The notes under the pieces: model-generated | Database searches by the model: none | What the model saw: the letters and a program-made list of their open reading frames with translations, nothing else | What the model was told of the DNA's origin: nothing | Source: Bdellovibrio bacteriovorus | GTDB taxonomy: Bacteria; Bdellovibrionota; Bdellovibrionia; Bdellovibrionales; Bdellovibrionaceae | Length of the DNA: 64,000 bases | Direction: 5' to 3' | Assembly: GCF_001592745.1 (NCBI RefSeq) | Contig: NZ_LUKD01000001.1 | Coordinates: 1,446,848-1,510,847, forward strand | Shown here: one piece after another, positions 29,130-30,730 of the stretch | Numbering within the stretch: the first letter of the stretch is position 1 | Layout: each line of letters opens with the position of its first letter | Made by a program: the position numbers and the translations under genes

Positions 29130-29145
29130 TCGCGGTCGTCGCTAA

Positions 29146-29263
29146 GGACCCGATCGACTTCGTTGTCGGGTCTCGACTTGCTCTCCGGCGTACAAAAGTA
29201 CGCCTACGTGGCAGCCGAAACCCTCCGCCTTGCGCTCGGACCCTTATCGCCAACCTTAGTTGG
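29146..29263 (+). other. Hairpin-rich GC-rich segment downstream of atpE
   Basis: Several inverted repeats follow atpE: GACCCGA/TCGGGTC (29146-29171 region), a perfect GGCGTAC-AAAA-GTACGCC (29187-29204), and CCAAC/GTTGG (29250-29263). No reading frame with a start signal is seen. The segment has a higher GC content than its surroundings and could be a structured 3' UTR, a processed small RNA or a degenerate mobile repeat. Confidence 0.4.
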
Positions 29264-29284: not shown

Positions 29285-29317
29285 AAAAGGCTGGGATTTT
29301 TTCCTGGCCTTTTTTAT
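29285..29317 (+). terminator. Rho-independent terminator of the FO operon
   Basis: AAAAGGCTGGGA pairs with TCCTGGCCTTTT around a T-rich loop, with G-U pairs, and a T-run follows. It ends the atpZ-I-B-E transcript before the MerR-type gene. Confidence 0.7.
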
Positions 29318-29367
29318 TTTGTGGACCTTGACCCAAGGGTAAGCCTGAGATTCATCTAGAGGTTAGG

Positions 29368-30354
29368 ATGAAGAACTGGCTAACGATCGGACAATTTTCA
29401 AAAGCAGTTGGTGTTTCGGCAAAAGCTTTGCGCCTTTATGAGAAGATGGGACTGCTTAAGTCTCGCACTCGTGGAGAAAACGGCTATCGCTATTACGACG
29501 ACACACAGTTGGTTTTGGCAAAACGTCTTAAAGAATTTAAGGACTTGGGATTTAGTCTTGCGGAAATAAAAAGTCTTTTACAGTCCGATCATGCACTTGA
29601 TTCTGAAAAATTAAAAATCACAATGCGCACGCGACTTGATCTTATCAATCAGGAAGCCGAGCTTCTTAAAGAACAAAAGAAACAAATCGAAACCATCCTT
29701 TCCTCCATCGAAAAAAAATCAGAGCCGCTTAAGGCTGATGAGAGGAGAGTCATTATGAGTTTGTATGGCAAGGTTTCCATTGTTGTTACTGGCGTCAATG
29801 GTTTAGAAAAAACGGCTGAATATATTCAGAAACATTTTAAAAATGCTGGACAGAGTGTGCCTACTTTTAAGTGGCACGCTGAACTAGTATTACCTGAAGA
29901 AAAACCTTATATTCTTGTGGTTCCAGAGAAAGATCTTTTGTTCGGTGATATATCTAGAATTCAAGCAGATGTTGTTGTTATCAAAAACCTAAGTGAGCAC
30001 TCGGCGGAACTTGAAAAAAATTATTTAAAACTGTTCAGCGCTATCGGCCCTCACGTCAATACAGTGGTGAATGCTGATGATCGAGCTTCCGTTTCGTTAA
30101 TGGCAAATCCCCATATTCAAAAAGGACGAATCTTTTATTTTTCAAAAAATCGCGCGCTAGAAAAACAGATTAAATTTATCGGTGGTGTCTTAAGCAGCGG
30201 TGATGAACTTGATATCTACGGGTTTAATCTCAAATCACAGGTGCACGTGAAAATAGATAGAATCATGGCGCTGGAAGAAGAGATGGCATTGATCTCTTCA
30301 CTAGGTGCTGTACTCACTGTTGGGTTAGATCAAGAACAACTTCAGATTCGATAA
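29368..30354 (+). CDS. MerR-type regulator fused to a degenerate Mur-ligase-like domain
   Basis: Residues 1-70 form a MerR winged helix (LTIGQFSKAVGVSAKALRLY, then YRYYDDTQL and GFSLAEIKSLL). A coiled coil follows to about 118. Residues 133-328 resemble the ATP-binding central domain of Mur ligases and cyanophycin synthetase: TGVNGLEKTAEYI (141-153) aligns without gaps with the P-loop TGTNGKTTT but lacks the lysine, DVVVIKNLSEHSAELEK (201-217) aligns with the TNI.EDH segment, VVNADDRAS (233-241) with the LNADDP motif, and the last 30 residues with the helix after HN. The third ligase domain is absent. An enzyme is unlikely; sensing of nucleotide or peptidoglycan precursors is a plausible inference. 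Confidence 0.75.
   Translation: MKNWLTIGQFSKAVGVSAKALRLYEKMGLLKSRTRGENGYRYYDDTQLVLAKRLKEFKDLGFSLAEIKSLLQSDHALDSEKLKITMRTRLDLINQEAELLKEQKKQIETILSSIEKKSEPLKADERRVIMSLYGKVSIVVTGVNGLEKTAEYIQKHFKNAGQSVPTFKWHAELVLPEEKPYILVVPEKDLLFGDISRIQADVVVIKNLSEHSAELEKNYLKLFSAIGPHVNTVVNADDRASVSLMANPHIQKGRIFYFSKNRALEKQIKFIGGVLSSGDELDIYGFNLKSQVHVKIDRIMALEEEMALISSLGAVLTVGLDQEQLQIR
29742..29757 (+). promoter_or_regulatory. Possible internal translation start for the Mur-like domain
   Basis: GAGGAG (29742-29747 region) is followed after about seven bases by an in-frame ATG at 29755, codon 130 of the MerR fusion. This is exactly before the Mur-like domain, so a separate 199-residue product without the DNA-binding part could be made. 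Confidence 0.45.
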
Positions 30355-30371
30355 ATAGGGTCTGAAAAATG

Positions 30372-30407
30372 CAAAAGCGAATCAGGCCTTTGCCAGAATC
30401 GCTTTTG
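30372..30407 (+). terminator. Terminator-like hairpin after the MerR fusion gene
   Basis: CAAAAGCGA pairs with TCGCTTTTG, and TC/GA and GGC/GCC pair further in with symmetrical A-A mismatches. The T-run is only four bases and lies inside the stem, so termination may be partial, with read-through into the small gene. Confidence 0.6.
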
Positions 30408-30409
30408 GT

Positions 30410-30442
30410 GGATCTCCTGTCCGATAAAAACAGGAGGTATCC
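30410..30442 (+). promoter_or_regulatory. Hairpin that buries the Shine-Dalgarno site of the small peptide gene
   Basis: GGAT (30410-30413) pairs with ATCC (30439-30442) and TCCTGT (30415-30420) with ACAGGA (30430-30435). The optimal ribosome binding site AGGAGG (30432-30437) is therefore inside the structure. ACCTCC at 30558-30563, after the coding region, is complementary to GGAGGT (30433-30438) and gives an alternative long-range block. Confidence 0.6.
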
Positions 30443-30443
30443 G

Positions 30444-30542
30444 ATGCGTAAAAACACGTACTTACGTATTCGGCGTATTCTTGAGATTACTAAAGTAATC
30501 CTTGTGATTATTTTTCTGATCCTGACTATTTTTAAGTATTAG
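30444..30542 (+). CDS. 32-residue hydrophobic membrane peptide
   Basis: The frame starts at ATG six bases after a perfect AGGAGG site and encodes 32 residues: a basic N-terminus (MRKNTYLRIRR) and one uninterrupted hydrophobic helix of about 17 residues (ILVIIFLILTIF in the middle) ending in KY. It is too short for most gene finders. Basic start plus single membrane span is the form of type I toxins, small membrane regulators and leader peptides; nothing in the sequence separates these. The strong but sequestered ribosome binding site argues that it is translated under control. Confidence 0.6.
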   Translation: MRKNTYLRIRRILEITKVILVIIFLILTIFKY

Positions 30543-30544
30543 GT

Positions 30545-30655
30545 ATCTGAAGCAAGAACCTCCAACGTGTGCATAGCCTAAGGACCGGTGACTGGGAATC
30601 GGGCTGTTAACACGGTAGGAGTGAAACACGGACGAGTCTGGTGAAGGCTCAAATA
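30545..30655 (+). ncRNA. Structured RNA candidate downstream of the small peptide
   Basis: The segment folds into nested helices: AGCCT (30575-30579) with AGGCT (30645-30649), ACCGG (30584-30588) with CTGGT (30638-30642), and ACT/AGT next to it, enclosing a central domain. It ends at a strong terminator. It may be the 3' part of the peptide mRNA, an independent small RNA or a riboswitch-like element. The family is not recognised. Confidence 0.4.
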
Positions 30656-30684
30656 AAAAGCCCGCTCTTTTGGAACGGGCTTTT
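30656..30684. terminator. Strong rho-independent terminator
   Basis: AAAAGCCCG (30656-30664) pairs with CGGGCTTTT (30676-30684) and is followed by CTTTTTT. The A-run on the other side makes it usable from both directions, between the RNA candidate and the convergent phosphohexomutase gene. Confidence 0.85.
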
Positions 30685-30694
30685 CTTTTTTAAC

Positions 30695-30730
30695 CTGGTA
30701 CTTTTTTGAAACGATAGGAAGCAGGTACCT
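30695..30730 (-). repeat. Dispersed 36-base intergenic repeat, copy 2
   Basis: Read on the minus strand this begins AGGTACCTGCTTCC and ends AAAAAAGTACCAG. It matches copy 1 (563-598) at 29 of 36 positions without gaps. It starts one base after the stop codon of the phosphohexomutase gene. Confidence 0.7.

Follow-up and report, generated by a model that had tools for sequence, protein, structure and literature searches.

We analysed a 64,000-nucleotide stretch of Bdellovibrio bacteriovorus DNA (the window) and found in it a gene whose product, as judged from its sequence, joins a MerR regulator to a dead domain derived from a Mur ligase; the fusion is conserved in relatives. The sequence shows three components: a MerR half, a tail derived from MurD that is dead but retains one patch, and, before the gene in every relative, a MerR-type promoter whose spacer measures 19 bp. 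The best explanation would be an autoregulated target-mimic switch, which senses something that docks on MurD outside the active site and titrates it. We give this reading a probability of roughly 40%.

Gene structure and the MerR half

The open reading frame is intact and has exactly the limits given in a preliminary description of this DNA (Table 1). According to the list of open reading frames, atpB and atpE lie upstream, atpE flanking the fusion gene on one side, and a phosphomannomutase gene read in the opposite direction flanks it on the other. The N-terminal MerR winged helix-turn-helix, which had also been described, was confirmed by Pfam over the first 73 residues (MerR_1, PF13411, E = 1.6e-17; MerR, PF00376, E = 1.1e-14). 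A Pfam match of the window protein to MerR-DNA-bind (PF09278) reached residue 109 and scored 23.3 bits, below the cut-off of 25.4. Searched with Pfam and NCBIfam, the window protein was recognised as MerR alone, and a back-translation search of the genome contigs with the fusion protein likewise returned generic MerR alone. We found no viral relative of the fusion protein, and an Rfam search at the locus gave nothing near gathering scores. A known defence system at the fusion locus was considered and rejected, as the PADLOC matches were a generic MerR HTH (mad1) and a weak LeoA.

Table 1. Features of the fusion gene and its upstream region (positions in the window)
Feature	Position	Strand	Remarks
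Terminator-like hairpin ending the upstream ATP-synthase gene atpE and separating it from the fusion gene	29285..29313	+	
-35 hexamer TGGACC	29322..29327	+	TTGACC in most relatives
Predicted MerR-type operator ACCTTGACCCAAGGGTAA	29325..29342	+	mostly within the 19-bp spacer; most conserved upstream block
-10 hexamer GAGATT	29347..29352	+	19-bp spacing; GATAAA, GATATT or TAGAAT in relatives
MerR-MurD fusion gene	29368..30354	+	328 aa plus stop; ATG at 29368, stop ends 30354
MerR winged helix-turn-helix, residues 1-73	29368..29586	+	Pfam; confident part of the AlphaFold model
Long helix at the place of the MerR dimerisation coil, residues 79-116	29602..29715	+	AlphaFold, low pLDDT of about 32-57
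MurD central-domain-derived tail, residues 131-328	29758..30351	+	profile comparisons and tail tree
Degenerate P-loop TGVNGLEKT, residues 141-149	29788..29814	+	aligned to MurD TGTNGKTTV
Retained MurD patch, residues 232-279 (TVVNADD..GRIFYFSKNRALEKQIKFIGG..)	30061..30204	+	includes the class-specific MurD insert; retention of MurD-invariant columns and alignment

The tail is derived from MurD

The preliminary description had compared the tail with the central domain of Mur ligases and cyanophycin synthetase and had suggested an HMM search against the Pfam family Mur_ligase_M. In Pfam-A, the window protein gave no match to this family; some relatives matched it below threshold (E = 0.011 for L074 and 0.018 for L008). 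PDB searches with the window protein did not reach MurD convincingly (E = 0.93), and in two single-sequence AlphaFold runs on the window sequence the tail had a pLDDT of about 30–50. Since Pfam and NCBIfam were blind to the tail and the PDB search was unconvincing, a profile-profile comparison was needed. The fusion-family profile aligned with a local MurD profile over MurD residues 112–317, with an hhalign probability of 99.3% and E = 3.7e-20. Run against 369 genomes of the phylum, the same profile matched MurD ORFs, starting at query residue 128–136, with E-values of about 1e-18 to 1e-23 in each genome; the matches listed are from genomes of the same order. In whole-genome searches of 66 family members, the tail alone matched an ORF of about 465 aa in nearly every genome. 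This ORF is MurD, with a MurD N-domain, middle domain (3.1e-29) and C-domain in the family library. The Mur ligase part of the earlier assignment thus holds, by profile-profile comparison and not by Pfam; cyanophycin synthetase is not needed as an origin, since MurD explains the tail. A chance match of motifs as the source of the Mur likeness was ruled out by the hhalign result, the phylum-wide MurD matches and the tail tree described below.

Catalytic residues are replaced and another stretch is retained

The tail corresponds to the central domain of MurD only. Domain 1, with the UDP site, and domain 3, for glutamate, are absent, and the fusion protein ends where the profile match ends. We compared the 18 intact members at the MurD residues that we take to be in contact with ATP, Mg or substrate (E. 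coli numbering): K115, S116, T117, N138, E157, H183, K198 and N271. The P-loop lysine, already reported as replaced, is indeed lost from TGVNGLEKT when set against MurD TGTNGKTTV; the position holds Leu in the window protein and Leu, His or Ile across all 18 members. In the alignment S116 has become mostly acidic or Gln, N138 mostly W, E157 mostly P, K198 mostly Y and N271 mostly A; H183 is missing, and T117 is replaced in all or nearly all members. Exceptions are one member with Asn in the N271 column and one with Glu in the E157 column, the latter being the least certain column, with a conserved Glu one column away in most members. At the old P-loop, a new motif, TGxxG[LH]xKTA, is conserved in most members.

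The mean proportion of MurD-invariant columns that were kept is 54% in MurD 221–268, 28% around the P-loop and 3–16% in the other segments. The retained patch is nearly invariant in the MurDs of the family. As aligned here, the tail is a catalytically dead, worn-down copy of the MurD central domain, and its conservation suggests that it uses a surface other than the catalytic site. Replaced catalytic residues together with a kept patch argue against sensing of UDP precursors or ATP and for a different surface, an argument that rests on sequence conservation.

A MerR-type promoter precedes the gene

When the fusion genes were aligned, the sole well conserved block upstream of the gene was TTGACCTTGACCCAAGGGCAACCTCGA. 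The best -10 match lies exactly 19 bp from the -35 hexamer in all 18 intact genes, and MerR-regulated promoters have spacers of 19–20 bp (PMC9909328). The palindrome typical of such MerR spacers is present as a partial dyad (6–9 of 11). From the start of the -35 hexamer to the ATG the distance is 46–48 bp in 17 of the 18 genes and 54 bp in the remaining one. By consensus, the two hexamers of the window promoter (TGGACC, GAGATT) are weak.

A search of 13 genomes with the operator pattern found the gene's own promoter in each. The remaining matches with at most one mismatch were at the level of the reversed-pattern control, in a search that would miss targets more than one mismatch from the pattern. 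The genes beside the fusion vary from genus to genus, which leaves no fixed target operon, and no adjacent transporter or detoxification gene stays beside the fusion gene across genera. A conserved partner operon was therefore rejected. A short ORF with a structured element immediately behind the gene was likewise rejected as a dedicated target, because it belongs to a dispersed multi-copy element. Taken together, the MerR-type promoter of the gene itself, the background level of operator matches elsewhere and the variable neighbours suggest autoregulation. The parsimonious reading would be a gene that stands alone and regulates itself, like those of TipA-class proteins. Many MerR proteins do so, and autoregulation by itself is no demonstration of titration.

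Distribution, origin and selection

Looking for the same fusion in other genomes, as had been suggested, recovered intact genes in 18 genomes from three families of the order; a 19th gene (G029) is split between two contigs. Full-length relatives in the searches of the 66 family members had 37–79% identity, and many genomes of the same genus were without the fusion gene. In the tail tree all 18 fusions form one group with support of 100/100. Among the sequences aligned, the fusions and the MurDs of their class have an insert in common, GRIFYFSRKPALEPQIMNIGG, which is absent from E. coli MurD and from one retained MurD outside the class within the phylum; this outside-class comparison consists of these two proteins, ten other MurDs having been dropped by the filter. 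MurD sequences from the PDB search output were also without the insert. Because of the single tail group and the shared class-specific insert, the tail is taken to be captured from the MurD of its own class or lineage, and this capture probably happened once. In one MurD (L033:1371-2759, − strand) the insert occupies residues 242–262, and it is nearly invariant within the family.

In unsaturated pairs, the tail has an omega of 0.096 (G008/G003) and 0.053 (G014/G022), that is, a dN/dS of about 0.05–0.1. The tail is under purifying selection in these pairs and therefore functional. In some pairs it changes more quickly than the MerR half: between the window and G023, identity is 68% in the tail and 95% in the MerR half. 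For the same pair, synonymous divergence over 29368–30351 is about 0.25 in codons 1–150 and about 0.75 in codons 151–325, and the flanking genes have 0.35–0.69. A recombination breakpoint at the MerR/MurD junction is possible, as if tails had been exchanged between strains.

Related MerR fusions carry pieces of other enzymes

At E < 1e-29, the same MerR profile matched almost exclusively fusions to enzyme pieces. Their tails were MurD, the DnaE core (about 500 aa; PF07733/PF17657) and, in one protein, the Lon substrate-binding domain (PF02190, E = 3.2e-24). The C-domain of the DnaB helicase forms the tail in a more distant group (PF03796, 9.9e-37; L162-L164). Comparable MerR-like operators lie directly upstream of DnaE-type and Lon-type genes, and the catalytic DxD region is altered in DnaE-type tails. 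In the MerR tree, which has limited resolution, the Lon-tailed protein groups with a MurD-tailed one (96/92), the DnaE-tailed groups are close by and the DnaB group is separate. Within that resolution, this mixing of Lon-, MurD- and DnaE-tailed proteins indicates that related MerR halves have changed their tails at least a few times.

The MerR-DnaE proteins have about 500 aa, and their tail is a degenerate core of DNA polymerase III alpha. They occur in several families of the phylum (L032:1761-3248, −; L035, L036, L038-L042, L057, L060-L062, L077, L085, L154-L157 and L168), and those examined are preceded by a MerR-like operator. One of their genes (L085:23-1619, +, in genome G034) adjoins genes for an FRG-domain protein and a REase-like protein, which match the PADLOC defence models PDC-S15 (1.6e-33) and Aga_REase (1.4e-20), respectively. 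The MerR-Lon protein (L034:2742-3827, +) has 361 aa and carries the N-terminal, substrate-binding domain. MerR-DnaB genes lie at L162:602-1747 (−), L163:469-1596 (−) and L164:1066-2187 (+); their tails appear to keep the Walker A motif and match PF03796 at 1e-37 (L163) and 1e-31 (L164). Further tailed MerR proteins of 270–335 aa were found at L158, L159, L160, L165 and L166.

Proposed mechanism and comparison with known systems

In the target-mimic switch that we propose, a dimer would sit on its own promoter and keep it weakly active. A ligand, most likely a protein or peptide, would dock on the retained non-catalytic MurD surface of the tail (MurD 221–268). Upon binding, the MerR half would twist the promoter into register, and the gene would induce itself. 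The extra mimic protein could then titrate the ligand away from the real MurD. This logic would be that of TipA-class MerR proteins, with the drug-binding pocket swapped for an enzyme copy.

TipA proteins are described as minimal resistance systems that regulate themselves (PMC7762955). Members of this class (TipAL/TipAS, SkgA, AlbA) resemble the fusion in joining a MerR half to a ligand-binding half and in standing under their own MerR promoter, which is the predicted target here too; if the mimic reading is correct, the fusion protein itself could sequester its ligand, as TipA-class proteins can. The sensing domains differ, as TipAS is an unrelated drug-binding domain, with no Pfam match in the fusion protein, whereas the MurD-derived tail copies a housekeeping enzyme. 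CarH/LitR proteins (MerR plus a B12-binding domain) are also MerR halves fused to a domain related to an enzyme cofactor domain; the B12-binding domain of CarH is akin to methionine synthase. CarH keeps its cofactor site, whereas the fusion lost the catalytic site and kept another stretch. With MurD itself, the UDP-MurNAc-Ala:D-Glu ligase and source of the tail, the fusion shares the class-specific insert, but it is without domains 1 and 3, the P-loop lysine, the catalytic Glu/His and the carbamylated Lys. The MerR-DnaE, -Lon and -DnaB proteins have the same order of a MerR half and an essential-enzyme piece, behind a MerR-like operator for DnaE and Lon; they differ in the enzyme captured and, for the DnaB type, in the apparently intact Walker A motif. 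In agreement with the earlier remark that no described MerR family was known to have this partner domain, we found no account of a MerR-Mur ligase fusion family in the open-access literature.

Several other readings were weighed against the target-mimic switch. It is somewhat unlikely that the hollowed-out MurD fold binds an unrelated metabolite or drug, in the manner of CarH with B12, and that the protein induces itself together with a few unseen targets. Most MerR effector domains do bind small molecules, the gene appears autoregulated, and the new motif at the old P-loop is conserved; however, the most conserved stretch is the 232–279 patch and not the old pocket, and no transporter or detoxification gene remains adjacent. 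The patch, nearly invariant in the family MurDs and including their insert, is also what would be expected of a docking site if the tail competed with MurD for a normal partner protein, reported the abundance of MurD or its partner and tuned wall synthesis during the predatory cycle. We find such a cell-wall feedback doubtful, as no second operator rose above background in 13 genomes and the gene is missing from many genomes of the same genus, which would be unusual for core wall control.

A tail that binds nothing, serving as a mere folding or oligomerisation module of a simple self-repressor, would agree with its faster evolution in pairs such as window/G023. It is improbable given the strong purifying selection, the sharply local retained patch and the existence of related fusions with other enzyme tails. 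The preliminary description had favoured a dead ligase fold that senses UDP-activated wall precursors or nucleotides. The fold does derive from MurD, an enzyme that acts on UDP-MurNAc-Ala and ATP. However, the UDP domain is missing, and all or nearly all members have other residues at the P-loop K, E157, H183, K198 and N271 positions, so this proposal was not borne out and has become very improbable.

A broader idea builds on the target-mimic switch. MerR-type decoy sensors might form a modular class in Bdellovibrionota, in which the sensing half copies an essential enzyme (MurD, DnaE, DnaB, Lon), binds agents that attack this enzyme, such as phage inhibitors or peptide toxins, and self-induces as guard and sponge. 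We rate this as rather unlikely. If true, it would be a bacterial counterpart of integrated-decoy immune receptors. The target-mimic switch itself would bring a further sensor principle into one-component regulation, where a dead copy of the watched enzyme replaces a small-molecule pocket. The related switches with essential-enzyme pieces hint at a sensor class built from copies of the cell's vital machinery, and since pieces of three or more other essential enzymes recur in this phylum, the idea can be tested for the class as a whole. A binder of the retained MurD stretch could reveal a way of attacking or controlling MurD away from the active site.

Repeated elements around the locus

Downstream of the gene, window positions 30370–30700 belong to a dispersed multi-copy element of the genus, with three matches in this genome and five in G023. 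It contains an ORF for a basic, hydrophobic peptide of 32 aa at 30444–30542 (MRKNTYLRIRRILEITKVILVIIFLILTIFKY), followed by a possibly structured stretch, and looks like a type I toxin-antitoxin gene or a gene for a small membrane peptide. Another repeated element lies in the intergenic sequence after atpE (29145–29245), with three other copies in the genome at 75–86% identity.
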